Origin: Methanothrix sp.
Lineage (GTDB): Archaea > Halobacteriota > Methanosarcinia > Methanotrichales > Methanotrichaceae
Assembly: GCA_026394555.1 (NCBI GenBank)
Contig: JAPKXZ010000064.1
Span: forward strand, 1 to 56,727
Direction of reading: 5' to 3'
Length of the DNA: 56,727 nucleotides
Made by a program: the position numbers and the translations under genes. This document shows positions 1-51,698 of the stretch, one piece after another (position 1 is the stretch's first letter; each line of letters begins with the position of its first letter). The notes below the pieces were generated by a model. That model made no database searches. It had not been told where the DNA came from and was given only the letters and a program-made list of their open reading frames with translations.

Positions 1-98
1 CCTGTTTCAATCACGGGATCGAGCGTCCCATAAACTTGTCGGCCTTCACTGCCCATATCCGGCTTAACGTGAACGGATAACAATATGTGGTTTTCCAT
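1..98 (-). CDS. Partial ORF at the left edge, unknown function
   Basis: An ATG at 98 opens a frame that stays open to the window edge (32 codons seen, beginning MENHILLSVHVKPDMGSEGR). It overlaps the last 35 bases of the next gene on the same strand in a different frame. The residues look coding (mixed composition, no stop), but the fragment is too short to assign. It is either a separate downstream gene, translationally coupled to the regulator-like gene before it, or the frameshifted continuation of that gene. No good ribosome binding site is visible ahead of the ATG, which slightly favours the frameshift reading. Confidence 0.35.
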   Translation of the reverse strand, partial: MENHILLSVHVKPDMGSEGRQVYGTLDPVIET

Positions 99-558
99 CC
101 GTCACGTGTGAGCCCCTGCCTGGGCTCATGTGCGTTTCAATACCGATCCCATACTTCTTGAAATTTCTCAAGTAATGTTGATATAATTCCTTCACCTTGG
201 CCTTTCGAAAAGCCATTTCATCGGGCGGTTTCCAATAAGTATTTACCTTATCCAGGTTCTCTTCCCAGATTATTTCTGGGTTTGCCGGCAGATACGTTTC
301 GCGGTCGAAGTCTACATCAGAATCCTCTGTGAAATAGGTCCTGCCAATAATTCCATGCCTCTGCAACTCCTTTCTTCCAGCATACAGTGCTTGCCGATTG
401 ATATCGGTCCCATAAATTGCCTGGGCCTCGTTTAAAATACCCTGGAGATTTGTAGGGAAATTTATTATTAGGCTAACATAATATATTGCAGCGGCCCTGG
501 GATTTTCAAAGTTCAGGCCTCTGAATATTGGAGAGAAAGTCCTGATGATCTCATACAT
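64..558 (-). CDS. Hypothetical protein, possible winged-helix regulator
   Basis: The frame is open from 651, but the ATG at 558 is the better start: AAAGG lies seven bases upstream and a TATA-like AAGTTTAAAAAC (about 583-596) sits at promoter distance. That gives about 164 residues. The N-terminal half is helical with a pattern reminiscent of an archaeal HTH protein (residues about 30-75 of the shorter form, with a KELQRHGIIGRTYF segment like a recognition helix and wing). A PANPEIIWEENLDK segment recalls the linker after the HTH in some TrmB-like archaeal regulators. This is a resemblance from memory, not a firm family call. The C-terminus is rich in basic residues and may be truncated by a frameshift (see the overlapping partial ORF). 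Confidence 0.5.
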   Translation of the reverse strand: MYEIIRTFSPIFRGLNFENPRAAAIYYVSLIINFPTNLQGILNEAQAIYGTDINRQALYAGRKELQRHGIIGRTYFTEDSDVDFDRETYLPANPEIIWEENLDKVNTYWKPPDEMAFRKAKVKELYQHYLRNFKKYGIGIETHMSPGRGSHVTDGKPHIVIRSR

Positions 559-761
559 GGTAGTGCCTTTAAGCAATTGATGAGTTTTTAAACTTATCCA
601 ATTCGTAAAATAGCTCTTTTTATCATATTGTCTGAAATCGTGATAATACATTTTGACTCACTCACGGAGAATGTAAATTAGCAGAAACCACAAATATTGT
701 AGCTTAGATCAATTTATAATCATCGTTATGTGATTATTATGTTAAATATTTTGACGTATGG

Positions 762-780
762 CCGAAAAGTATATGTATAC
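762..780 (+). promoter_or_regulatory. Archaeal promoter for the acyltransferase gene
   Basis: CCGAAAAGTATATGTATAC combines a BRE-like purine-rich stretch (CCGAAAA) with a TATA box. Transcription would start near 800, leaving a leader of roughly 75 bases before the ATG at 875. Confidence 0.5.
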
Positions 781-874
781 TCAAGACAATGCGATGAGTA
801 AGACATAATGAACCCTGTGAGAATGAATCATCCGCAGAATCGATAGTTAAGAAACATGTCTAGTGGGGAACTAA

Positions 875-2320
875 ATGAACCAAACGAAACAGAAGACCAA
901 CGACACCAAAATTCCGGGATGTGTGCGCCGCCTCTCAAATAGTGAGAGGTTCTGGCTGTGGAATCCTGCAGCCAATGTGGTCGTAGCTGCCCGGATTATT
1001 GGAGATGTATCTGAGAAGGGGCTCATGACGGCCATCAATGCTGTTCGCCGCATGCATCCTCTGCTGGGTGCGAGGGTTATCTTCGATGACCACCATGACG
1101 CATGGCTTTCCACGGATAAAGTCCAGGATACGGTGTTACGTACCGTTCCAAGAATATCGGAGACCCAGTGGTTCGAGGAGATCAGGCATGAGAACAGGAT
1201 ACCCTTCGAGCCTGAAATCGGCCCACTGATTAGACTTGTACTTGTCTATTCTCCACAAGTATCGGAGCTGGTTGTATTCGCCACACACAGCATCTGTGAT
1301 GGGGATGCACTGGCAATTCTCATTCGCGATATTCTGATATGCTATGCCAATCCGGCAAAAGAGGTGCAGGTCCTCCAACCGCTCAATTTGGAGGACTGCT
1401 TGCCGAAGGAGAGATTCTCCCTTCCTGGATTAATCGCAAAGACATTCATCAATTACTATAACCGTCAGTGGAGAAATAGGCCATATTACTTCACCCAGAT
1501 GGATTTTAACGAGATTCATAAAGCATACTGGGACAGGACGCGGTATAACATTGCCCTTATCCAGCTTGAGCCGGAAGAGACATCTGTTTTGGCAGCTAAA
1601 TGTCGGGAGAACGGTGTCACCATCACCTCAGCATCCACTGCTGCCTTTCTGGCAGCATATCGGGATATCCTTGGGCCATTTCCCAAGGACAAGAGGGTCA
1701 TATGGGTGGCCTATGACCTGCGCAGGCACCTTCAGAAGAATATAGGGGACGTCTTTGGCCTTTTTGCCGGGGCCATCCAGTTCAAGTTTGACTATAAACC
1801 GAATAAATCCCTCTGGAAAAATGCCAAAAAGCTCCACGGCATCATTCGTAAAGATGTGGAGAATAACAGGATAGCGGGCCGCGAAATGTTGCTAATTGAC
1901 CCGACGCTGATCGATGCATTCAACTTTGTCTTCTCTATGAAGCTCGTCCCCGAGGCCTCCGAAAGGACGAAGAACCTTTCAGCTTTCGTACATGATACTA
2001 AGAATGCTGCACTAGGACTCTCACAGAAGATCATATCCGGCCTCCCAGGGACCATCATCACCAACCTTGGGCGTTTGAACTACCCTGAGATCTATGGGAA
2101 TCTCAGGCTCGATCGCATGTTTTTCATTGTGGGTTCAAGCGGATTTACTCCACTGATACTTGGAGGAGTTGGCCTCAATGGCAAGCTGGTTTTTTCCTTA
2201 AACTATGTAGAAGAAGTGGGAAATGAGGGTTCACCGCTAGATCAGGATATGATCCGGATCCGAAACAGGGCGCTCGAACTCCTGGGATTCCCAGAGAAGG
2301 CCAACGATAGGGCGATGTGA
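875..2320 (+). CDS. Condensation-superfamily acyltransferase (copy 1)
   Basis: This 481-residue protein has the HxxxD motif of the condensation/PapA5/alcohol-acetyltransferase superfamily: H138-S-I-C-D142 followed by Gly. Further C-terminal, a TNLGRL stretch corresponds to the conserved asparagine/glycine segment near the second half-domain tunnel. Such enzymes transfer an acyl group from a CoA or carrier-protein thioester to an alcohol or amine. No carrier or adenylation domain is present, so a free-standing ester-forming role like PapA5 is more likely than peptide synthesis (inference). A GGGGAA stands before the ATG. Copy 2 lies at 3618-5069, collinear over its whole length, with H138 and D142 at the same positions. 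The substrate cannot be told from sequence. The neighbouring methyltransferase suggests a shared small-molecule or lipid pathway. Confidence 0.8.
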   Translation: MNQTKQKTNDTKIPGCVRRLSNSERFWLWNPAANVVVAARIIGDVSEKGLMTAINAVRRMHPLLGARVIFDDHHDAWLSTDKVQDTVLRTVPRISETQWFEEIRHENRIPFEPEIGPLIRLVLVYSPQVSELVVFATHSICDGDALAILIRDILICYANPAKEVQVLQPLNLEDCLPKERFSLPGLIAKTFINYYNRQWRNRPYYFTQMDFNEIHKAYWDRTRYNIALIQLEPEETSVLAAKCRENGVTITSASTAAFLAAYRDILGPFPKDKRVIWVAYDLRRHLQKNIGDVFGLFAGAIQFKFDYKPNKSLWKNAKKLHGIIRKDVENNRIAGREMLLIDPTLIDAFNFVFSMKLVPEASERTKNLSAFVHDTKNAALGLSQKIISGLPGTIITNLGRLNYPEIYGNLRLDRMFFIVGSSGFTPLILGGVGLNGKLVFSLNYVEEVGNEGSPLDQDMIRIRNRALELLGFPEKANDRAM

Positions 2321-2359
2321 AGCCCATGATGAGTCATGAAAATCAAACGGTGTGCGGAC

Positions 2360-2383
2360 TACCCCAACCTGAAGGTCGGGGTA
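2360..2383. mobile_element. Hairpin resembling an IS200/IS605-type end
   Basis: TACCCCAACCT and AGGTCGGGGTA form an 11-bp stem with one mismatch around a GA loop. The following bases (GGGGTATTCGTGACCC, then a TTTGCGCCCC stretch) look like the subterminal hairpin flanks of IS200/IS605 elements as I recall them. No tnpA or tnpB is present here, so this would be a relic end. It lies exactly where copy 1 loses similarity to the copy 2 flank. Confidence 0.35.
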
Positions 2384-2413
2384 TTCGTGACCCTTTGCGC
2401 CCCCTATGTAATA

Positions 2414-2554
2414 GAGGCATTCCTTATGGGGTGGTGCTTTTCCCAGGTCCATAGTGTGACCTGCCAGAATTATAAAAAGGCTTATTTCCACGAGGCGAAT
2501 GAAGGTCGGTATGTATGCAGGTTGTTGAATTTCGTCCATGCAGTGGTTGGGTGA
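2414..2554 (+). pseudogene. 3' remnant of an LCMT-type methyltransferase
   Basis: The last ~46 codons of a methyltransferase survive here. The residues FLM, then QNYKKAYFHEANEGR, then VCRLLNF and HAVVG before a TGA stop align directly with the C-terminus of the complete methyltransferase at 2620-3552 (DYKKSYFHGANEGR, VCSLLNF, YAVVE). No N-terminal part exists: upstream lies the end of the acyltransferase and the transposon-like hairpin. The frame is open back to 2336, but that upstream part has no similarity to the methyltransferase. This is a relic of a second methyltransferase copy. Confidence 0.75.
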
Positions 2555-2619
2555 ATCTGATTAAAACTTGCAACAGATAACAATAAGAGAAGCGTGATAT
2601 TAAAGCAGGTGGATTAACA

Positions 2620-3552
2620 ATGAAAGGATCGGAAGATGCTAAGAAGGATTTTATCAAGACAAACAAGTGGTTCACGGAAAAAGCAAGATCCAGCAGCAAG
2701 ACTGCTGAGGGAATCGCAACCCTCAGGTTCCACGAATCGCAACGGCCCGAAGGCGAACGAATCTGTTATGACCCTTGTGCCGTCCATTTCATAAGCCCGG
2801 AAATATTGGAATGGATAGCTTGTAACCCAGATAAGGCAGAGGCAAGTTGGGAGCAACGCGAGCGCATCCTTCCCGGAATTGACAATTCAGTCATTGCCAG
2901 AGTCAGGTATTTTGATGATTTTGTAAAGAGATCTATCGAAGAAGGGCTTGAGCAGTTGGTTATCTTAGGTGCAGGGTATGATTCTCGTGCCTATAGGATT
3001 GAGGGGCTGACGAAGATAAAAGTCTTTGAAGTAGACCATCCTGCTATGCAAGCTCTGAAAATAGAAAAGATAAGAAAGATCTTTGGCAGCCCACCAGATC
3101 ATGTCACGTACATTCCTGCGGATTTAGGAAGAGAAGATTTTGGCCAAACGCTGTTGGAAATGGGATATAGCCCGTCTAAAAAGACTCTATTCCTCATGGA
3201 GGGGCTCTTATACTACCTTCCGCCTGAGATAGTGAACAAAATCCTTTCCTTCATATCCAAAAATTCGGGCAAAGGCAGTGCCATCATTTTCGATTATTAC
3301 TCACAGTCTGTGGTTGATGGAAGCTGCGAACTGGAAGTGGGAAAGAATCTCTATAACCAGCTGATTCAATATGGAGAGCCTTTGCGGTTTGGCATTAAGG
3401 AAGGAAGTATCGAGGTGTTCCTCATGGAGCGAGGATTTTCCAAGATCCAAAATGTGACCAGTAATGATTATAAAAAATCCTATTTCCACGGAGCAAATGA
3501 AGGCAGGACAGTGTGTAGCCTGTTGAACTTCGCCTATGCAGTGGTCGAATAA
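2620..3552 (+). CDS. LCMT/TIGR00027-type SAM-dependent methyltransferase
   Basis: This 310-residue protein has the features of the leucine carboxyl methyltransferase/PPM1 family (PF04072): an arginine-rich RVRYFDDF helix, the SAM-binding glycine motif LVILGAGYDSRAYR (about residues 107-120), the acidic VFEVDHP strand and the LFLMEGLLYYL segment. Bacterial and mycobacterial members often methylate carboxyl or hydroxyl groups of polyketide-like products, and function here is inferred only to that level. AGGTGG lies seven bases before the ATG. It stands between two acyltransferase paralogues on the same strand, 65 bases ahead of the second, so a common transcript is likely. A 3' fragment of a sister copy lies just upstream. 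Confidence 0.8.
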   Translation: MKGSEDAKKDFIKTNKWFTEKARSSSKTAEGIATLRFHESQRPEGERICYDPCAVHFISPEILEWIACNPDKAEASWEQRERILPGIDNSVIARVRYFDDFVKRSIEEGLEQLVILGAGYDSRAYRIEGLTKIKVFEVDHPAMQALKIEKIRKIFGSPPDHVTYIPADLGREDFGQTLLEMGYSPSKKTLFLMEGLLYYLPPEIVNKILSFISKNSGKGSAIIFDYYSQSVVDGSCELEVGKNLYNQLIQYGEPLRFGIKEGSIEVFLMERGFSKIQNVTSNDYKKSYFHGANEGRTVCSLLNFAYAVVE

Positions 3553-3617
3553 GTTTTGACTGGAGCACTCGCAAGAGTAACATTTAGACGAATTATTTGA
3601 TGAATTGAGGTGACGAA

Positions 3618-5069
3618 ATGAGCCGGAATGAACCGAAGACCTGTGGTATCGATATTTCGGGATGTGCGCACCGTCTCTCCAACACAGAGAGAATATTTCT
3701 TTGGGGCGTCAGATCTAAAATCGCCGTAGTCGCTCGGATTGTGGGGGATGTGGCTGAAAAAGATCTTGTACAATCGATTAAAAAGGTCCGGCAGATGCAT
3801 CCACTGGCGGGCTGCAAAATCATTTTCGATGATCATAATGATGCCTGGTGCTCGACGGAAAATGTCCCCGAAACAATATTGCGCGTCGTGCCAAGGAAAT
3901 CCGAAAACCAATGGTTCAACGAGATCCGCCGCGAGCACTTGATACCTTTCGAGCCGGAAAAAGGACCACTTGTCAGGTTCGTGCTTGTGTATTCGCCACA
4001 GGTTTCAGAATTGATTGCATTTGCCCAGCACTGTATCTGCGACGGCACGGCTGTGGCAAACCTGATCCGCGACGTCCTTGTCTGTTATGCCGAACCGGCA
4101 AAGGAAGTAAAGACCATTCAACCGCCAACTTTGACAGACTACGTGTTGAAAGATGAGGATTCATCCACATCAAAATCTATGGGTGGAGCCATGATCAACA
4201 ATTTTAACAACCAATGGAGGGAAAGGTCGTATCATTTTTCCGGGGCGGACTTTTGTGAGATCCATAATGCATTCTGGAAAAAGGTCAGTTATGGTATGAC
4301 CCTTCTCCAGCTTGAGCCAAAGGAAACGTGTGACTTGATCGCTCGATGCCGGATGAATGGAGTGACCATCATCTCTGCATTGACGACCGCGTTTCTTGCA
4401 GCACGCCAGGAGGTCCTGGGCCCACTTCCCGAAGAAAAGAGAACCATCGGCATCCCATTTGACCTGCGAAGGCACCTTGGAGAGAATATCGTGGAAGCGT
4501 TTTGCTTTTTTGCAGGAGACTTCAACTTGCAGTTCTCATGCAGCCCAGACAAACCATTCTGGGAAAATGCCCGAAAGCTGCATAGTATCATTCAGGAACG
4601 AGTGAAGACGCTCGATACTTCCGCTCTGGACATGAGATATTTTGATCCGACCCTCGTCGATGCAGTCTTCAGCTACGCACAATATGTCCAGAAAATCCCG
4701 GAGGGCTTCGACCGGACAGAAAACCTCTCCAACTTTGCTAAGGATTCAAAGAACATCGCTTTTGCCATCTCCAAGAAGGTTATTTCCAAGCATCCGAGCA
4801 TGATCGTCACGAACCTCGGAAGGTTGGATTTCCCGCAGATCTATGGAGACCTTCGGCTTGATCGAATGTTTTTCGCGCCGCCAGCCAGCGAGACAATTCC
4901 TATGATACTCGGCGGCGTCGGTGTCGGCGGATGCTTGACATTTTGCTTAGTTTATTTGGAGAAGAGAGAGAAAAGTGGCCAATTGCTCGCTTTGGATATG
5001 ATCCGCATCCGAAACCGGGTGCTCGAACTCCTGGGATTCCCGGAGAAGGCCAACGACAGAGCGATGTGA
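3618..5069 (+). CDS. Condensation-superfamily acyltransferase (copy 2)
   Basis: This is a 483-residue paralogue of the protein at 875-2320, collinear from the first 20 residues to the identical C-terminus (LELLGFPEKANDRAM). The catalytic HxxxD is intact (H138-C-I-C-D142-G), so both copies should be active. GAGGTGA sits five bases before the ATG. The divergence between copies is spread through the central region (about residues 160-260 and 340-400), which would be expected if they now accept different acyl donors or acceptors; that is inference. The DNA just past the stop repeats that after copy 1 for about 20 bases (CCCATGATGAGTCATGAAAA), marking the edge of the duplicated segment. Confidence 0.8.
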   Translation: MSRNEPKTCGIDISGCAHRLSNTERIFLWGVRSKIAVVARIVGDVAEKDLVQSIKKVRQMHPLAGCKIIFDDHNDAWCSTENVPETILRVVPRKSENQWFNEIRREHLIPFEPEKGPLVRFVLVYSPQVSELIAFAQHCICDGTAVANLIRDVLVCYAEPAKEVKTIQPPTLTDYVLKDEDSSTSKSMGGAMINNFNNQWRERSYHFSGADFCEIHNAFWKKVSYGMTLLQLEPKETCDLIARCRMNGVTIISALTTAFLAARQEVLGPLPEEKRTIGIPFDLRRHLGENIVEAFCFFAGDFNLQFSCSPDKPFWENARKLHSIIQERVKTLDTSALDMRYFDPTLVDAVFSYAQYVQKIPEGFDRTENLSNFAKDSKNIAFAISKKVISKHPSMIVTNLGRLDFPQIYGDLRLDRMFFAPPASETIPMILGGVGVGGCLTFCLVYLEKREKSGQLLALDMIRIRNRVLELLGFPEKANDRAM

Positions 5070-5084
5070 ATCCCATGATGAGTC

Positions 5085-5579
5085 ATGAAAATAAACAGAT
5101 TAAGGAGATATGTTTATAGTAGAGGTGGGAATATAAAGGTCACAAAGTACATAATAACCTCCCCCGAATGCACAGATATCCTCCCTTCAGACATATCCAC
5201 GATGATCTATGAATTAAAATATGGCGTAAAAGTCAAAGAAACCTGCTTTGGGGCGATCATAGAGGGCGAAGAGCAACCGATCAAGTCGCTGGTCGAAGAG
5301 ATCCGGGCTCTTGACCCACCGGGAATTTTCATTAAGGATCGGGGCTTCCCTCTGGGCGATCCCAGGCGCTGTCGAGGGGTTGATTCTGGTTCTCCTTGCA
5401 AATTAGTCTGGCTAACTTCGGGCAAACGGAGTGGAAGTGTCAGGCCAGGTTGCTACATGATCGAGGCCGAGTCAAAGATGTTGCCGCTGATATCACGAGC
5501 CTTGGCTTCTATGGCCAAAGGAGAGTCAAAAACGGATATGACGTCTGAGCCTATTGGAAATAGACCTTGCAAGCGCTAA
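5085..5579 (+). CDS. Methanogenesis marker protein 6
   Basis: The protein carries the segments I associate with the Mmp6 family (TIGR03272): VKVKETCFGAIIEGEE, EIRALDPPGIF and KDRGFPLGDPRRCR. These are found only in methanogens and relatives, function unknown, so the gene supports a methanogen host. The start is doubtful. The only ordinary start codon in frame is the ATG at 5085, which lies inside the flank shared with the upstream duplicated gene and adds 16-18 unconserved residues. The conserved region begins about residue 19, and the best ribosome binding site (GAGGTG, 5122-5127) is followed five bases later by ATA at 5133, with no ATG, GTG or TTG near it. The duplication may have replaced the original start. 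The C-terminal 20 residues are also unconserved-looking. Confidence 0.75.
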   Translation: MKINRLRRYVYSRGGNIKVTKYIITSPECTDILPSDISTMIYELKYGVKVKETCFGAIIEGEEQPIKSLVEEIRALDPPGIFIKDRGFPLGDPRRCRGVDSGSPCKLVWLTSGKRSGSVRPGCYMIEAESKMLPLISRALASMAKGESKTDMTSEPIGNRPCKR

Positions 5580-5864
5580 CACATACAATCCAGTAGGTTT
5601 AGGCCTTGGAGCCCTTCTGGGTCCGCTTGACCTAGCTCCAGCTTACACACGGTCAGATCTTTCCCGCATGGGGCTTGAAAAGAAACTCAGGGAGGGGCTT
5701 CCCTAACAGATGTTGTTCTCGATACGCATTTTGTTTTGAAAGCGAGGTTGGCCGATTGGGAAACATGGATTACAAGAAGCACAAAAAGTTTTACATTTTC
5801 AGTGATAAGACGCAGAACAAAGCAGAATTTTTATCGAAGAATCGCGTACCATCTCTGTCGTTGA
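5554..5864 (+). pseudogene. Two overlapping frames that look like one decayed gene
   Basis: A frame from TTG 5554 to TAA 5706 encodes about 50 residues with coding character (NTYNPVGLGLGALLGPLDLA, then YTRSDLSRMGLEKKLREGLP). A second frame, open from 5679 to TGA 5864, continues with SLTDVVLDTHFVLKARLADW and a basic tail. They overlap by about 28 bases and neither has a proper start with a ribosome binding site. A single frameshift near 5690-5700 would join them. I do not recognise the family. It overlaps the end of the mmp6 gene by 26 bases, so it could be a relic of a following gene in the marker cluster. Confidence 0.35.
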
Positions 5865-6026
5865 TAAGATCTAGAACCTGACGGCTCCGGCCTCTGACGA
5901 GGTGTCATATGCGCCCCTCCTTGCAACTGCGGGGTATTCGAATAGAGCGATAATTCGACATTTGTATCAGTTTCGCTCCAAGCATGAATCGCACTTAAAT
6001 ATTCAGCCTGTGCAAAGGAATCCATC

Positions 6027-7232
6027 TTGACCCAGATATTCACAGTCACCGACCTGAATCAGAGGATAGCAGACCGCCTGGAGAACGATCCCCGCCTGCA
6101 CGACCTCTGGGCACGAGGCGAGGTCTCCAACTACCTGCATCACCGGTCAGGGCACAGGTATTTCACCCTCAAGGACCAGGGCTCCTCCATCTCCTGCGTT
6201 CTCTTCAAAGGTAGCGCCCTCTCCCTGAACTTTGAGCTGAAGGACGGCACAAATGTGATGGTCTTCGGAGATGTTGCCGTTTACAGGCCGCAGGGCAGAG
6301 TGCAGCTGGTAGCTCGCGGCATAAAGCAGGATGAGGGCCTCGGTTTCCGGCACCTGCAGATGGAGGCCCTCAAAAAGAAGCTGGCCGGGGAGGGGTTATT
6401 CGCCCAGGAAAGAAAGCGGGCGCTGCCTTTGTATCCGGAGCGAATCGGCATTGTTACCTCCCCCCAGGGAGCGGCACTGCAAGATGTTCTGCGAACCATT
6501 GGCACCTATCCCGCCAGAATCATCCTCTCTCCGGCCCAGGTGCAGGGAGAGGGAGCCGAGGAGAGCATTGCCTCTGCCATCTTAGCCCTGCGAGGTCGGG
6601 CTGATGTAATCATAGTATGTCGCGGGGGCGGCTCGACTGAGGATCTGTGGTGCTTCAACTCCGAAATTGTAGCCCGCGCCATATTCGCCTGCGACGTGCC
6701 TGTCATCTCCGCAGTCGGTCACGAGACGGATGTAACCATTGCCGACTATGTGGCGGATATGCGAGCAGCGACGCCCACGGCGGCAGCAAAGATGGCTGTG
6801 CCGGATGTAGAGGAGATAAAGGAAGGACTGCGCTCCACAAAGGTCAGAATAATGCGCGCCCTCTGGACGAACCTGGAACGAAAAGAGGAGCGCCTGGAAT
6901 ATCTAAAGCACAATGTCTCCGCCAAAAGGATGTACTCTCTGGCGCGGGACGCTCGCCAACGCCTGGATATTCTTTGCCAAAGCCTGGACGGCGCCCAGGC
7001 GGAAAAGATGCAAAGCCTGAAAAGCCGTCTGGAGCTGGCCAAAGGACGCCTGACGGCTGTGGGGCCGCGAGCCACTCTTCTCAGGGGCTATGCCATCGCC
7101 CGCTCAGAGAAGGGCCTGATACTGCAAGCCCAGGACGCCCGGCCCGGTGAGGAGATAGAACTGATATTGGGCAGGGGAAGGCTGAGGTGCAGGGTGCTGG
7201 AATGCCGGGATGATAGCGAGGGAGCACTATGA
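6027..7232 (+). CDS. xseA: Exodeoxyribonuclease VII large subunit
   Basis: This 401-residue protein matches XseA throughout: an N-terminal OB-fold (VTDLNQRIADRLE, WARGEVSNYLHH, GHRYFTLKD; residues about 5-95) followed by the catalytic domain with PERIGIVTSP, DVIIVCRGGGSTEDLW and AVGHETDVTIADYVADMRAATPTAAA. The enzyme, with XseB, degrades single-stranded DNA to oligonucleotides in the cytoplasm. The central coiled coil (about 270-340) is shorter than in Escherichia coli, as is common for 400-residue homologues. The start is TTG, preceded by AAAGGA seven bases upstream. A CTTAAATA box about 26 bases before the TTG could act as a promoter. This is a bacterial gene pair, presumably acquired by transfer, known in other Methanosarcinales. 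Confidence 0.93.
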   Translation: MTQIFTVTDLNQRIADRLENDPRLHDLWARGEVSNYLHHRSGHRYFTLKDQGSSISCVLFKGSALSLNFELKDGTNVMVFGDVAVYRPQGRVQLVARGIKQDEGLGFRHLQMEALKKKLAGEGLFAQERKRALPLYPERIGIVTSPQGAALQDVLRTIGTYPARIILSPAQVQGEGAEESIASAILALRGRADVIIVCRGGGSTEDLWCFNSEIVARAIFACDVPVISAVGHETDVTIADYVADMRAATPTAAAKMAVPDVEEIKEGLRSTKVRIMRALWTNLERKEERLEYLKHNVSAKRMYSLARDARQRLDILCQSLDGAQAEKMQSLKSRLELAKGRLTAVGPRATLLRGYAIARSEKGLILQAQDARPGEEIELILGRGRLRCRVLECRDDSEGAL

Positions 7233-41882: not shown

Positions 41883-42920
41883 TCATTCATTTGCCTCGCA
41901 AAACTTCACCGCCATGGCCGCCCAGGTGAATCCCGCACCACTGCTTGCGATAACTATTAGATCGCCCGGCTTTATCCGCCTCTCTTCTATCGCCCGCCCC
42001 AGGTTGAAGAGGGTATCAACCGTGCCCATGTGGCCATAATCTTCAATGGAGGTCAGTGTGTTTTTCTCGCTCAAGCCCACGGATTGAAATATATCTCTTG
42101 AGAGGCTTCTTTTAACCTGGTTGGTGAAGAGAAAATCAATGTCCTCTAGCGAGTAGCCGCTCGTTTGTACGGCTCTTGTTATCACCTTGTTATAATTGTC
42201 CAGGTAGGTTTGGGATAGGATGCGATCCAGCCAATCGGGGTCGTCCACACAGATGTATTTGCTCCGGCTATCGTGAGCTGTCTGGCCATAGGGCATCTTT
42301 GTCCCGCCTAGTGGAACTTTAATGCAATCGACTGTTGATCCATCTGTTATCGAGGCGTATTCAAGTAGCTGGTTTTTTGCCTCACCTTTCTTGAGCAGGG
42401 CGGCTGCAGCCCCGTCCCCAACCATGAAGAGTGAAAGTGATCTTTTGTCAGTATAGTCAATGAATGGCGAAAGCTTTTCCGAGCATACAACCAGGGCATA
42501 CTCCTTTTCCAGATGGCCTAACGCCAGGTTTTTGCACAAATTGATGCCCAGGTTTCCGCCGTTGCAGCCGTTCTTGACCTCAAAAGCGTAGCAATCATCT
42601 GCCCCCAGAGCCGCTTGAATCCTGGCAGCCGGCGACCACATACTGTAGTCATAAAAGCTGGCACCGCAATAAGCGATGATTCCAATCTCTCTCGCATCTA
42701 TCCCCGCCCTTTGGACAGCCTGCCTGGCGGCGCGAATGCCCATATCCGAGGGCTGCTCATCCGGGGCGGCGATGTGCTTTTTTTCCATGCCGATCTTCTC
42801 TCTGAAGACCTCTTGTGGTATACCGGAGAGTTTCGATATCTCGCTGCTGGTGATGGTGCTCTCTGGAATGTAATAGCCGATCGATGCTATTCCCATTGTA
42901 TCGCTCTGCTGGCGTGTCAT
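41883..42920 (-). CDS. 3-oxoacyl-ACP synthase III-like thiolase-fold enzyme
   Basis: A 345-residue KAS III/FabH-type protein. The nucleophile is C119 in EVKNGCNGGNLG, and DYGHMGTVDTLFNLG holds the catalytic histidine. FTNQVKRS occupies the place of the family's asparagine region, and VGDGAAAALL is the usual KAS III loop. AGGA precedes the ATG at 42920. It is not the archaeal HMG-CoA synthase sequence type as I know it, so the condensation substrate is open. A stand-alone KAS III in a methanogen is notable next to the acyltransferase cluster 37 kb away, but no link is shown. Confidence 0.82.
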   Translation of the reverse strand: MTRQQSDTMGIASIGYYIPESTITSSEISKLSGIPQEVFREKIGMEKKHIAAPDEQPSDMGIRAARQAVQRAGIDAREIGIIAYCGASFYDYSMWSPAARIQAALGADDCYAFEVKNGCNGGNLGINLCKNLALGHLEKEYALVVCSEKLSPFIDYTDKRSLSLFMVGDGAAAALLKKGEAKNQLLEYASITDGSTVDCIKVPLGGTKMPYGQTAHDSRSKYICVDDPDWLDRILSQTYLDNYNKVITRAVQTSGYSLEDIDFLFTNQVKRSLSRDIFQSVGLSEKNTLTSIEDYGHMGTVDTLFNLGRAIEERRIKPGDLIVIASSGAGFTWAAMAVKFCEANE

Positions 42921-46131: not shown

Positions 46132-48750
46132 ATGCAAGCTTTGATAAAATTCATTATCGGATTTCTTCTGATAGCTTTTCTGGTTACGGGTTCTTTAGCA
46201 GCTGAAGAAAAGACATCGAAGCAAATTCTAATTCTTGCCTCCTATAATCTTGGGATGAAATGGGATGATAGTATTATCTCCGAGATAAAGCATCAATTTG
46301 CAATTTATATGCCTTCGGCAGTTATCGACGTCGAATTCATGGACACAAAGAGAATCGATCCAAATGTTACCCGTTTGGCAGACTTGAAGACATTGTATCT
46401 TAAAAAGTACAAAGAGAGGCACTTCGATGTAATCATTTCTACCGATACCGACGCCTTCAAATTCTTGCTTAATAACAGCGAGGAGATTTTCCCGGATACG
46501 CCAGTCGTCTTCTGCGGCGTTATCAACTTCGATGATAATATGCTTCGAGGAAAACGCAATTTAACAGGCGTAATGGAGGTATTCGATATCAAAGATACCA
46601 TTTCATTGATGCTCAAATTGCATCCCCATACAAAGCTTATTGCTATTGTAAATGATAATACAACAACCGGTCAGTCCAATCGAGAGATTATGGATGCAGC
46701 AATTCCCGAATTCAAGGGCAATGTCTCCTTTGAGTACCTTGACAACCTCACGACAAAGGAACTCAGGCAGCGTGTCTCTACCCTGCCTAATGATAGCCTC
46801 ATCTTGGAGATGACCTTTAATAGGGACCGGACGGGAAAGATCTTGACTTATGAAGATGCAACAAGCCTAATTCAAGGAGCAAGCTCCATTCCAATTTATG
46901 CATTATGGGAGTTTTTTCTGGGATATGGAGTTGTAGGGGGAAAGATGCTCACCGGCGCGTCTCAGGGAAGCGAAGCGGCGAATCTTGCCTTCCGCATCTT
47001 AAGGGGAGAACCTGCGAAGAATATCCCTGTTGCAAGAGAGAACTTCAACCGTTACATGTTTGATAATTTTGAGCTGAATCGTTATGGCATTCCCATCTCC
47101 AGCTTGCCTCCAGATAGCGTGATAATTAACCAGCCATTCCAATCACGCGTTGATCTCAGCGAAAAGAACCTGAGCGGACTTAATCTATCCGGGGCCAACC
47201 TGAGCCGCTCCCAGCTACAAAATTGCAATCTGGAAATGACGAACCTTTGCGGATCAGTGCTGGAAGGATCCGAATTAGGCGATGCCCGGCTGGTTAGAAC
47301 CAACTTCCGGGGAGCAACCATGGATGAGACCGACTTAGATGGATCTGATCTATCTTTTGCCGATCTAAGGGGTGCTATTCTGGTCGGATCGGACATCACC
47401 GGCTCGAATCTGACCGGCGCGGACCTGCGAGGTGCAGATCTGGACCAGGCGCGTTTGCCAAATGCGATTCTAGCCGGAGCAAATCTGGATAAGGCAAACT
47501 TGACTGCGGTCGATCTTCAAAGTGCAGATCTTACCGGAACCTCCTTATTCCGAGCCTATTTGAGGCGGGCTAACTTACGTAGTTCGCGACTGATGGGTGC
47601 CAATCTATCCGGGGCAGACCTGGTTGGGGCTAACATGATTGATGCGGATCTATCCAATGCCGATCTGACCAATGCAGATATCTCAGAGAGCCGCTGTCAT
47701 GGCGCAAAGTTCGTCGGCTCTCGGTTAATCAATTCCCGGATTGGGTTTGCCAACCTGACTGATACGAACCTCAGCCGGGCCAACCTCTCCGGTTCATATC
47801 TTGCTTCTTCCGGTCTTACGGGTTCCGATCTCTCCAAAGCCAACCTCTCAAGGGCAAATCTCGAAGTTGCCAATATGCACAAAACTAGACTTGTCGGAGC
47901 AGATCTATCAAGTGCCAGTTTGCCCGGAGCGCATCTGGAAGATTCCGACCTCTCTAACTCTAATCTTGAAAACGCCGATCTTACCGGCGCATTGCTGGGC
48001 GGGTGCAATCTAACCGGCGCTAATCTGAATGGTGCCAGGCTTCTTGGTGCTGATCTTAGCCTTGCTCTCATGAAAGATGCATATATGACTCGCACCAACC
48101 TGATGGGTGCCAAAATGAGCTGGGTAGATATGGGCGATAGCAGTTTCAACGATTGCCAGTTCACCAGATCGGAACTCTTTGGAGCCAACCTCAGTAATTC
48201 CGATCTGACCGGTTCGGACTTTACCCGAGCATATTTGGTGAGAGCAAATCTGTCCGGCTGCACTCTGAAGGACGTCAACCTGGACTTTGCCGACCTTACC
48301 GGAGCAAAACTGCATAATGCCCAATTGAGCGGGGTCAGACTGGCGAACGTACTTCTAAATGATGCAGACTTATCGGGCGCGGACCTCACGGGATCTTATC
48401 TTTATGGCATGACCCTTACTGGAACTGTATGGAGCAAGGCGAACATAAGATCGTCCAGCATAATTTTGCTGAACTTTTTGGATGCAGATTTCAGCGGTGC
48501 CAACCTGCAAAAGACCCGTTTTGCCCAGACCTATATGAATAACACCAACTTTTCCGGTGCGGATCTGAGTGGTGCCGTCTTTGACACCTCGGCCTTCGAA
48601 AACGCCGATTTTACGGGTGCAAATCTGCAGGGCATCAAGTACGATTCCATAGCGCTACAGTTTTTCGCGGCGTCCAAACTGGATGGTGCCAAGATGAGCG
48701 CAGATTTGCAAACGGATCTGGAAAAATTGCGGTCAGGGATAATAACCTGA
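46132..48750 (+). CDS. Exported substrate-binding domain fused to a long pentapeptide-repeat helix
   Basis: An 872-residue protein. Residues 1-24 are a signal peptide (FIIGFLLIAFLVTGSLAA). Residues about 30-330 form a periplasmic-binding fold like the ABC_sub_bind domains of sensor kinases (QILILASYNLGMKWDDSIIS, DVIISTDTDAFKFLL, DTPVVFCGVINFDD, VNDNTTTGQSNREIM). From about 340 to 850 there is an almost unbroken A(D/N)LXX pentapeptide repeat (LSGLNLSGANLS, ADLTNADIS and so on), a right-handed quadrilateral beta-helix. The C-terminus (ASKLDGAKMS, LEKLRSG) matches the protein at 49998. GGTGAGGAG lies before the ATG. I know no described protein with this fusion; role perhaps ligand-responsive surface scaffold. 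Confidence 0.85.
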   Translation: MQALIKFIIGFLLIAFLVTGSLAAEEKTSKQILILASYNLGMKWDDSIISEIKHQFAIYMPSAVIDVEFMDTKRIDPNVTRLADLKTLYLKKYKERHFDVIISTDTDAFKFLLNNSEEIFPDTPVVFCGVINFDDNMLRGKRNLTGVMEVFDIKDTISLMLKLHPHTKLIAIVNDNTTTGQSNREIMDAAIPEFKGNVSFEYLDNLTTKELRQRVSTLPNDSLILEMTFNRDRTGKILTYEDATSLIQGASSIPIYALWEFFLGYGVVGGKMLTGASQGSEAANLAFRILRGEPAKNIPVARENFNRYMFDNFELNRYGIPISSLPPDSVIINQPFQSRVDLSEKNLSGLNLSGANLSRSQLQNCNLEMTNLCGSVLEGSELGDARLVRTNFRGATMDETDLDGSDLSFADLRGAILVGSDITGSNLTGADLRGADLDQARLPNAILAGANLDKANLTAVDLQSADLTGTSLFRAYLRRANLRSSRLMGANLSGADLVGANMIDADLSNADLTNADISESRCHGAKFVGSRLINSRIGFANLTDTNLSRANLSGSYLASSGLTGSDLSKANLSRANLEVANMHKTRLVGADLSSASLPGAHLEDSDLSNSNLENADLTGALLGGCNLTGANLNGARLLGADLSLALMKDAYMTRTNLMGAKMSWVDMGDSSFNDCQFTRSELFGANLSNSDLTGSDFTRAYLVRANLSGCTLKDVNLDFADLTGAKLHNAQLSGVRLANVLLNDADLSGADLTGSYLYGMTLTGTVWSKANIRSSSIILLNFLDADFSGANLQKTRFAQTYMNNTNFSGADLSGAVFDTSAFENADFTGANLQGIKYDSIALQFFAASKLDGAKMSADLQTDLEKLRSGIIT

Positions 48751-48836
48751 CCTGCAATTTTTTTGAGAATAACCTTTATCATTTTTGTGGGGTAATCAAT
48801 TATACACTCGTGTGAAGTTGGATGGAGATGGTCTGA

Positions 48837-49895
48837 TTGAAATGCATGTGGATTATAATTCTTTGTGCTCTTTTCCTGGTTGGCTTGGCTGTAGCAGGCG
48901 GTGGTGCAGCCATTAATGACTCCTCGGGAAAATATGAGCTGAATGTGACGTTGCTCGATTTTGGCCCGGTGGGGGACCATGGCTGGACGTACGAGGCCCA
49001 TGCAGGTGCATCCCAAATGGCCCAGAAGCTATCTTTTGTCAACCTCTCCGAGAGAGAGAATGCCGCCGGTCCTGACGCATCCCAAATATTGAGCGAATAC
49101 GCCAAGAATGGAGCTAAGCTGATATTCTGTCACAGCTACAACTTCATAGATGCCATCAAAGAAGTGGCCCCAAAATATCCGGATGTCATTTTCATGTGGG
49201 GCGGTGGGACGGAAAAGCTAGTCCCCAATGCAGGAGTTTATTACGAAAGGATTTATGAGGCGCAGTATCTTGCCGGAATCGTGGCTGGCAATATGACCAA
49301 GACGGGAAAAATCGCTTTTGTTGCTGCTCTGCCCACATCCCAGGTAATAATCGGCATCAATGCCTTTGCCAGGGGCGTCGCATCCTCCAATCCTCACGCC
49401 AAAGTGTACGTAGAGTGGATAGGGGACTGGTATGCCCCAGAAAAAGAGCGGGCCGTGGCCTTATCACTTATTAGCAAAGGATGCGATATCATAACCCATT
49501 GGTCCGATTCCGATGCGACGGGTCAAACTGCGGATGAGATGAATATCTACTTCATATCTTTCGGCTCAGATGTAGGCCGTTTCTCTCCTCGTGTCTACCT
49601 TACGGGCGCAATCTGGAACTGGGAGCCCATTATGACCGATATTGTAGAATCTGTGCATAACGGGACCTGGGATTCCCGCCCTGGGCATGATTGGTGGTAC
49701 GGACTGGCAGAAGGTGGAGTAAAGCTGGCGCCTTTTGGAGATCAGGTTCCCGGCGATGTCCGATCTTTTGTAGACAAGAAAGAAACGGAGATTATGCAGA
49801 AAAAACTGGCAATATTCCCCAATATTCGTGATGAAGAGCTGAAAACGATGTATTATCTCGAAGCAAATGTTGTGGGCAAGCTGCCTAAATCATAG
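48837..49895 (+). CDS. BMP/PnrA-family substrate-binding protein
   Basis: A 352-residue exported protein with signal peptide (MWIIILCALFLVGLAVAGGG) and the BMP family pattern: LLDFGPVGDHGWTYEAHAGA, GAKLIFCHSYNFIDAIKEVA, YEAQYLAGIVAGNMTKTGKI, GCDIITHWSDSDATGQTA. Members bind nucleosides or related ligands for ABC import. No lipobox cysteine is seen and no permease or ATPase gene is adjacent, so the protein may act in sensing or with a distant transporter. TTG at 48837 or ATG at 48846 are the possible starts. Confidence 0.85.
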   Translation: MKCMWIIILCALFLVGLAVAGGGAAINDSSGKYELNVTLLDFGPVGDHGWTYEAHAGASQMAQKLSFVNLSERENAAGPDASQILSEYAKNGAKLIFCHSYNFIDAIKEVAPKYPDVIFMWGGGTEKLVPNAGVYYERIYEAQYLAGIVAGNMTKTGKIAFVAALPTSQVIIGINAFARGVASSNPHAKVYVEWIGDWYAPEKERAVALSLISKGCDIITHWSDSDATGQTADEMNIYFISFGSDVGRFSPRVYLTGAIWNWEPIMTDIVESVHNGTWDSRPGHDWWYGLAEGGVKLAPFGDQVPGDVRSFVDKKETEIMQKKLAIFPNIRDEELKTMYYLEANVVGKLPKS

Positions 49896-49997
49896 GCGCT
49901 TTCCTTTTTTCTGGATTGGTGTGGCTTATCTCATTGTCTACTAGGAGGAGTTCACTCCCGATTAAAAATTAATAGTAGTAGTGCAGATAGTATTATC

Positions 49998-51698
49998 ATG
50001 GCTATTTCTGTTATACGGTTAGTTTTATGGGTGTGTTTGCTTTTCGTTCTTCTATCTATTATTTCGTCAGCAATCGAAGAAAATCCTTTCAAAGATCATG
50101 CCCTGCTCATGGGCATGAACCTGAGCGGCATGAACCTGTCAAGAACCAGCTTGAATCATTCCGAGTTGCAGGGATCAGATCTTGGCGGGACGAACCTCTG
50201 TCGATCCTTTTTGGTGCAGGCCGTCATCTCCAACGCCAATCTTATCGGAGCCAATCTTAGTGGCGTATTCATGCCAGCCGTTGATCTTCATGGATCCGAT
50301 CTCTCTCATGCTGATCTCAGAGGTGCCTACTTGCCAATCAATTACTTGATCGACTCAAATCTGACAGGAGCTGATCTATCTGGATCTTTTATGGATCAGG
50401 CCATGTTGGATAATTCAACTCTCGTTGGTGCCAAGCTGAATGAGGCCAGCTTGTCGGCTGTGAAAATTAGTTACGCAAATCTGGGTGGAGCAAGTCTCGT
50501 AAAAGCATTCATGAACCGGGCCACCTTCCAGCAATCTCAAATGATTGGAGCCAATCTGAGCGGAGCAAGCCTGGTCGGGGCGAACCTGATTAATGCAACG
50601 ATATCCAATGCAGACCTCTCCGGTGCTGATCTATCCGAGTCGCGCTGTTCGAGAGCGAATTTCTTTGACTCAAGGCTAGTCAAATCAAAATTGGGTTTTG
50701 CCAACCTGACCAGTACAAACCTGAGCCGTGCGGACCTCTCCGGATCTTATCTTATGGCTTCCTCTTTGGATGACTCCGATCTTTTCCAGGCGAATCTAAC
50801 CGGTGCGAACCTGGAAAATGCCTTAGTGCATAGAGTTAGACTTGTTGAAGCCAGACTAACCGGCGCAATTTTGGCCAGAGTGCATTTGGAGGATTCGGAT
50901 CTATCTAACTCCTATCTTGAACAGGCCGATCTTACCGGTGCATTGCTTAGTGGAGCCAATCTGACCGGTGCCGGTCTGACGGGTGCCAGGCTTCTGGGTG
51001 CTGATCTTAGCCTTGCCGTCCTGAAAGGTGCGGATCTGAGTGGAGCAAACCTGGTAGGTGCCAGACTAAATTGGGCGAATCTTACGGGCAGCGCTCTTAT
51101 GCGTTGCCAATTCTCCCGAGCAGAGTTATTTGGAGCCGACCTGAGTCACTCTGATCTCAGCAACTCGGACTTCACCAGGGCATATTTGCCAAGGGCCAAG
51201 TTGCATGAGTCTAACCTCCGAAACACAAAATTGGACAATGCAGATCTTAGCGGTGCAGATATGTCGGGGGCGGATCTTGGGGGTGTCCAGATCGTTAAAG
51301 CAGATCTGGATGAGGCTAACTTATCCGGGGCAGACATGGCCGGATGTAACCTGGAATCCATGAACTTAAGGGGGACGGTTATGCAGAGAGCTGTGTTGAG
51401 ATCAGCAAGCTTGAATTGGATGATACTTAATGAGGTTGATCTTCAGGGCGCAGACCTCCGAAATGCCAAATTTAATGCGGTCTTCCTGGAAAATGTAAAC
51501 CTTTCCGGGGCAGATCTGAGGAATGTAGATTTAAATAAGACCGCACTGGTGAATGTTGATATGAGTGGAGCGAATCTCGTGGGGATAAAGTATGATGACC
51601 TGATACTCCCCATGATTGCGAGTTCAAAACTTGATAACGCCAAAATGAGTGTCGATATGCAAAAGGATCTTGCAAAATTGAGGTCGGGACAAACCTGA
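49998..51698 (+). CDS. Exported pentapeptide-repeat protein
   Basis: A 566-residue protein: signal peptide (VLWVCLLFVLLSIISSA), then from about residue 38 to 545 continuous pentapeptide repeats (MNLSGMNLSRTSLNHSELQG, ADLSGADLSESRCSRANFFD). It is paralogous to the repeat part of the protein at 46132, down to the end (SSKLDNAKMSVDMQKDLAKL). A beta-helix of roughly 25 coils, over 100 angstroms long, is expected; it should be extracellular, unlike the usual cytoplasmic pentapeptide proteins such as Qnr/MfpA. Confidence 0.87.
   Translation: MAISVIRLVLWVCLLFVLLSIISSAIEENPFKDHALLMGMNLSGMNLSRTSLNHSELQGSDLGGTNLCRSFLVQAVISNANLIGANLSGVFMPAVDLHGSDLSHADLRGAYLPINYLIDSNLTGADLSGSFMDQAMLDNSTLVGAKLNEASLSAVKISYANLGGASLVKAFMNRATFQQSQMIGANLSGASLVGANLINATISNADLSGADLSESRCSRANFFDSRLVKSKLGFANLTSTNLSRADLSGSYLMASSLDDSDLFQANLTGANLENALVHRVRLVEARLTGAILARVHLEDSDLSNSYLEQADLTGALLSGANLTGAGLTGARLLGADLSLAVLKGADLSGANLVGARLNWANLTGSALMRCQFSRAELFGADLSHSDLSNSDFTRAYLPRAKLHESNLRNTKLDNADLSGADMSGADLGGVQIVKADLDEANLSGADMAGCNLESMNLRGTVMQRAVLRSASLNWMILNEVDLQGADLRNAKFNAVFLENVNLSGADLRNVDLNKTALVNVDMSGANLVGIKYDDLILPMIASSKLDNAKMSVDMQKDLAKLRSGQT

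Follow-up and report, generated by a model that had tools for sequence, protein, structure and literature searches.

What would a methanogen do with two acyltransferases on either side of a methyltransferase? The window, a 56,727-nucleotide stretch from Methanothrix sp. (contig C27 of a 2.5 Mb assembly, 96% complete), carries such a trio, AT1, MT and AT2. A sequence-only reading had proposed a pathway for an esterified, methylated lipid or small molecule. Our main finding is a conserved set with its regulator and putative operators. We read AT1, MT and AT2 as an accessory, laterally shared, ligand-responsive set for small-molecule modification, whose likeliest purpose is to inactivate toxic or unwanted compounds, and give this a probability slightly under one half (about 0.47).

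Three intact enzymes at a rearranged locus

The three open reading frames lie on the forward strand where the sequence-only reading had placed them (Table 1). It had also credited each with a good ribosome site, which applies to MT (AGGTGG) and AT2 (GAGGTG), but the AT1 site (GTGGGG) is weaker. Its host call, a methanogen, agrees with the methanogenesis marker gene at 5085 and with the nearest named homologues, which are Methanothrix/Methanosaeta MAGs.

Table 1. Positions of the locus features in the window, and of the second operator-like repeat at related loci
Feature	Position	Strand	Description
Probable insertion element, end	1..132		contig begins inside the element; divergent gene split by it
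Divergent gene, N-terminal part	64..651	-	about 173 aa; 76% to L049 598-1467
AT1	875..2320	+	481 aa; standalone HxxxDG acyltransferase, condensation/PapA fold
AT1 active site	H138 1286-1288; D142 1298-1300	+	
Copy of post-AT2 sequence	2321..2350		near-identical to bases beyond 5069; includes first codons of mmp6 paralogue
CCCCAACCTGAAGGTCGGGG hairpin	2362..2381		seen in sequence; possibly an IS200/IS605-type end remnant
MT remnant (second MT)	2411..2548	+	C-terminal 46 residues; 63% to MT residues 264-309, E 1.6e-11
MT	2620..3552	+	310 aa; SAM-dependent LCM/TIGR00027 methyltransferase
AT2	3618..5069	+	483 aa; AT1 paralogue
AT2 active site	H138 4029-4031; D142 4041-4043	+	
mmp6 paralogue	5085..5579	+	methanogenesis marker protein 6, second copy; 15 bp past AT2
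TAAAGTTAC-N4..6-GTAACTTTA	L111 7603; L112 8238; L113 3224; L118 7380; L121 7827		operator-like repeat

AT1 and AT2 share 54% identity. Both retain the H138/D142 pair that had been noted from the letters, in HSICDG and HCICDG. Twelve homologues, from Methanothrix, Methanosarcina, Methanoregula and two bacterial MAGs, were aligned, and all keep H138, I140, C141, D142 and G143. AT1 passes the Pfam models PapA_C (35.9 bits; cut-off 30) and AATase PF07247 (24.9 bits; gathering score 22). AT2 passes AATase only (22.4 bits), and for both the AATase pass is narrow. AT1 and AT2 fall short of Condensation PF00668 (25.3 and 19.0 bits; cut-off 30.6) and of the curated PapA5 model NF006787 (37.1 and 23.4 bits; cut-off 396). 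An AlphaFold2 model of AT1, built from an alignment of homologues from the window and public loci, reached a pLDDT of 86.3 and a pTM of 0.89. Foldseek matched this model to AzeD (8s6l, TM 0.68), TRI3 (0.60) and PapA5 (1q9j, 0.58), followed by many condensation domains. The Pfam scores, the HxICDG motif and the matches of the predicted fold place AT1 in the condensation/acyltransferase superfamily, as a standalone enzyme. The ATs are single proteins of some 480 aa, not parts of a multi-domain synthetase as NRPS condensation domains are.

MT clears the cut-offs of TIGR00027 (244.6 bits; 93.55) and LCM (183.4 bits; 22.3). Its motifs GAGYDSR, EVDHP and MEGLLYYL are conserved in the family, and 2ckd and 6id6 are solved relatives. 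Carboxylates are the main methylation target of characterised LCM-fold enzymes, and by this precedent MT would be a carboxyl-O-methyltransferase. The family assignments made from the letters for the acyltransferases and the LCMT/TIGR00027-type methyltransferase are thus borne out by Pfam, TIGR00027 and fold.

The locus also carries an MT remnant, duplication scars and a split gene, none of which had been mentioned before. Over their final 75 bases AT1 and AT2 reach 92% identity, compared with about 60% in other parts, and the sequence of 30 bases past AT1 duplicates the beginning of the mmp6 paralogue. Together with the MT remnant, this 3' duplication points to duplication or recombination ahead of the mmp6 paralogue as the origin of the arrangement. 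In the AT tree the pair falls inside a Methanothrix clade and a sister relation is not resolved, so nothing marks AT1 and AT2 as a recent duplicate pair. The G+C content is 41-49% across 1-6 kb of the window and 55-61% at 6-10 kb, a difference that fits acquisition without proving it.

Upstream, homology of the divergent reading frame stops near 132, and the end of contig C26 (L170) holds the C-terminal remainder of a gene of this type. ATGGAAAACCACAT stands at one break and its inverse complement at the other, and the gene was probably split by an insertion element. Rfam searches of 1-6100 and L170 detected no group II intron or other known RNA at threshold; a 2dG-II match at 1644-1697 was sub-threshold (21 bits vs 60) and was dismissed. 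The divergent family, a Methanothrix protein of about 330 aa (L040, L043, L171, L172 and L049), is known to date solely from Methanothrix-type genomes with MT matches, and in most of those with the gene it adjoins MT, AT or DUF3795. Pfam and family scans of the divergent gene returned no match, and structure prediction gave no usable model (pLDDT 31.7).

Downstream, the mmp6 paralogue scores 109 bits for DUF2102 and 111 bits for TIGR03272 (cut-off 126). The other copy in this genome (G000:C39:59973-60317) is 70% identical, and the ordinary copy of relatives is surrounded by conserved genes. G004 and G006 also have extra copies and G016 a similar one, so that this is an accessory paralogue in a subset of Methanothrix. 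A tie between the set and a sole mmp6 copy was rejected, since the 5085 gene is the second copy and another lies on contig C39.

These scars raise the question of whether the window set is a relic, duplicated, severed from its regulator and perhaps unexpressed. The MT remnant, the duplicated 3' junction, the insertion-split neighbour, the lack of an adjacent TetR gene or operator (see below) and the broken copies in G016, G007, G233 and L140 all point that way. All three window genes are, however, full length with intact motifs despite a 46% difference between AT1 and AT2, so they have probably long been kept by selection. We regard a relic as quite unlikely.

A conserved neighbourhood with TetR regulators

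The sequence-only reading had suggested a search for a conserved neighbourhood across archaeal genomes. Several methanogen genera have linked homologues of AT and MT, with TetR neighbours in common. Linkage in Methanothrix, Methanosarcina and Methanoregula excludes isolated homologues in one genome that lack partners, an outcome the sequence-only reading had named as refuting its proposal. In Methanothrix, MT overlaps AT (G022) or the order is MT-TetR-AT-TetR-MT (G024). The order is MT-MT-TetR-AT in Methanoregula (L135) and TetR-AT-abH-MT in Methanosarcina (L140), where abH is an alpha/beta hydrolase and AT is broken. AT and MT are adjacent or clustered in G233 and lie 12-27 kb apart in Methanosarcina G390, G402 and G411. 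In G016, MT stands ahead of an mmp6 paralogue, as in the window, and AT is cut down to 63 residues. Several of these gene associations come from metagenome assemblies that are fragmented, and loci that share a common descent do not count as independent cases.

A homologue of AT is present in 8 of 61 near relatives and in 15 of 393 genomes across the phylum, several of the 15 being weak or NRPS-type matches. Full-length AT is found in Methanothrix, Methanosarcina and G330; that of G233 is frameshifted. Named loci with AT come from Methanosarcina sp. 2.H.T.1A.6, UBA289, UBA11020, UBA10923, ERenArc_MAG2 and Methanoregula OWC_0057, and bacterial homologues from a deltaproteobacterial and a Clostridia MAG (both 37%). 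At E below 1e-20, MT has homologues in 26 of the 393 genomes, most of which have no AT. The patchy distribution and the broken copies fit an accessory function. One Methanosarcina genome (L115, L116, L117 and L118) encodes five TIGR00027-type methyltransferases, two in tandem; most have TetR neighbours, and the genome has no AT match.

Gene content around AT and MT varies between genomes. The recurrent partner families are TetR, a ferredoxin-nitroreductase (Fer4-nitroreductase), Amidohydro_3, two alpha/beta hydrolases (Abhydrolase) and DUF3795. Near AT in Methanoregula there are a luciferase-like oxidoreductase (Bac_luciferase) and an ICMT/PEMT-like gene (L135). No carrier protein, ACP, PKS, NRPS or other synthase was seen adjoining AT or MT in the window, as had been stated, or in the related neighbourhoods read. 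Among the latter, no lipid-synthesis gene was conserved and no efflux pump was recurrent.

The KAS III gene at 41883-42920, which had been called unlinked, is real (PRK06840-like, 311 bits vs a cut-off of 315); it adjoins a DNA polymerase B gene, and a link to the set was rejected. Farther along the window, a PnrA-like (Bmp) substrate-binding protein is flanked by two large pentapeptide-repeat proteins (46132-51698), one at 46132-48750 that also has an ABC substrate-binding domain and the other at 49998-51698.

In 15 genomes a TetR gene lies within 1.5 kb of 22 of 35 AT/MT genes, where TetR density predicts 0.25; because the AT/MT genes share descent, the figure stands for an enrichment and not for 22 independent events. 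Some MT loci have no TetR nearby (copies in G343, G363 and G354, and one in G414). The putative operator GACTNNNAGTC (GACT-N3-AGTC) precedes 6 of 30 TetR genes of these loci (Fisher p 4e-8) and 1 of 31 MTs, and is absent before all 434 other genes of the neighbourhoods. It stands upstream of TetR-AT in Methanothrix, Methanosarcina and Methanoregula and of TetR-MT in Methanothrix and the Methanosarcina genome of L115-L118, sometimes in tandem copies. The strict motif is rare genome-wide (about 22 sites in 19 genomes), and the backward control is several times more frequent. In G402 and G006 it occurs once per genome, ahead of TetR-AT. We propose WYGACTNNNAGTCRW as the putative target sequence of the cassette TetR. 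At five Methanosarcina loci (Table 1), mostly MT-amidohydrolase operons, divergent TetR and MT genes have a second operator-like repeat, TAAAGTTAC..GTAACTTTA, in the space between them; it is a ready candidate for an inducible promoter. The window locus has no adjacent TetR gene, the three TetR genes of its genome being on other contigs, and the strict operator has no site in that genome.

A proposed modification set for small molecules

Our reading is built on what the sequences show: the enzyme families, their intact motifs and fold, the conserved linkage, the adjacent TetR genes and the operator motif. From them we infer donor, acceptor, induction and purpose. In its typical form, a TetR repressor would sit on an inverted-repeat operator before its own gene and an AT or MT operon, and a small molecule would release it. 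Superfamily precedent suggests that His138 of AT acts as the base and Asp142 is structural; His138 would deprotonate a hydroxyl or amine acceptor, which then attacks an acyl thioester. To our knowledge, methanogens lack the bacterial fatty-acid carrier system, which makes acyl-CoA, most simply acetyl-CoA, the simplest donor. MT would use SAM to transfer a methyl group to a carboxylate or another oxygen, so that AT and MT jointly cap polar groups of a small molecule. The nitroreductase, amidohydrolase and hydrolases would work on the same class of compound. With no TetR gene or operator beside it, the window set may be constitutive or otherwise controlled.

An esterified, methylated small molecule, one half of the original proposal, is a fair chemical inference. 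The other half, a lipid, is unsupported: genes for a synthase, ACP, PKS or lipid do not recur, and the recurrent nitroreductase, amidohydrolase, hydrolases and TetR resemble inducible small-molecule modification. An archaeal membrane lipid esterified and methylated in PapA5-like fashion would account for the distant sequence similarity to PapA5, its place among the fold matches and the ICMT/PEMT-like gene beside AT in Methanoregula. The PapA5 model score is far below its cut-off, the neighbourhoods hold no conserved lipid-synthesis gene, and few genomes per genus carry the set, when a membrane lipid should be steadier. We consider this improbable.

A small biosynthetic set is a better candidate. 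Its product would be a signal or secondary metabolite that is acylated and methyl-esterified, and TetR would be the autoregulatory receptor of the set. Natural-product tailoring typically includes capping by acyl and methyl esters, TetR receptors also control sets of this kind, and the nearest fold match, AzeD, comes from a natural-product pathway. Yet no committed synthase or carrier protein adjoins AT or MT in the loci read, gene content changes from genome to genome, and MT mostly occurs without AT. On balance we are doubtful of this alternative.

We favour the modification set because inducible control, redox and hydrolytic partners, a patchy distribution and decayed copies suit outside or unwanted compounds better than a fixed lipid. 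Against it stand the window copy, without the TetR gene and operator on which most of the argument depends, some MT loci with no TetR nearby, and the lack of a recurrent efflux pump, which many detoxification sets have. A bolder version, which we think unlikely, is a mobile TetR-gated capping system (acylation plus methyl esterification) that spans several methanogen orders, produces or silences a diffusible signal or toxin in methanogenic communities and would be the first such system in archaea.

We found no description of a conserved AT/MT set with regulator and operators in the open-licence papers searched, and those on TIGR00027/LCM enzymes offered nothing of use for bacteria or archaea. 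The main text of two M. acetivorans transcriptome papers does not mention genes of the set. If the modification reading is true, acetate-using methanogens hold inducible small-molecule chemistry with a defined regulator and operator, which points to chemical exchange or warfare within methanogenic communities. It would also provide a ready inducible promoter and genetically tractable carriers, such as the Methanosarcina genome of L115-L118 with its several MT-TetR loci.

Comparison with known systems

PapA5, the phthiocerol/phthiodiolone dimycocerosyl transferase of Mycobacterium, is like AT1 a standalone HxxxDG acyltransferase of the same fold (1q9j, TM 0.58). The two differ in that AT1's sequence score is very low (37 of 396 bits) and in that PapA5 has a linked polyketide synthase, none of which was seen in the window or related neighbourhoods. 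AT1 and AT2 narrowly pass the Pfam cut-off of the alcohol acetyltransferase (AATase) family, and trichothecene 15-O-acetyltransferase (TRI3) is AT1's second fold match (TM 0.60), but these enzymes are fungal and share 13% identity. AzeD of Pseudomonas aeruginosa (8s6l), a condensation-like protein, is the best solved-structure match of AT1 (sequence E 1.2e-16, TM 0.68). Identity is 22%, the entry title says dehydratase, and the natural-product context is missing at the window.

The related loci resemble TetR-controlled operons for small-molecule modification in a divergent or leading TetR gene, a putative inverted-repeat operator (before 6 TetR genes and 1 MT) and modifying enzymes. The window copy has no adjacent TetR gene or operator. 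We did not find TetR control combined with AT/MT enzymes in methanogens in open-licence papers. MT shares family cut-offs and SAM motifs with mycobacterial ML2640 and Rv0731c and with eukaryotic LCMT1, whose protein substrate is not expected for MT. Compared with these TIGR00027/LCM enzymes, MT belongs to an archaeal branch that is linked to TetR and an acyltransferase.
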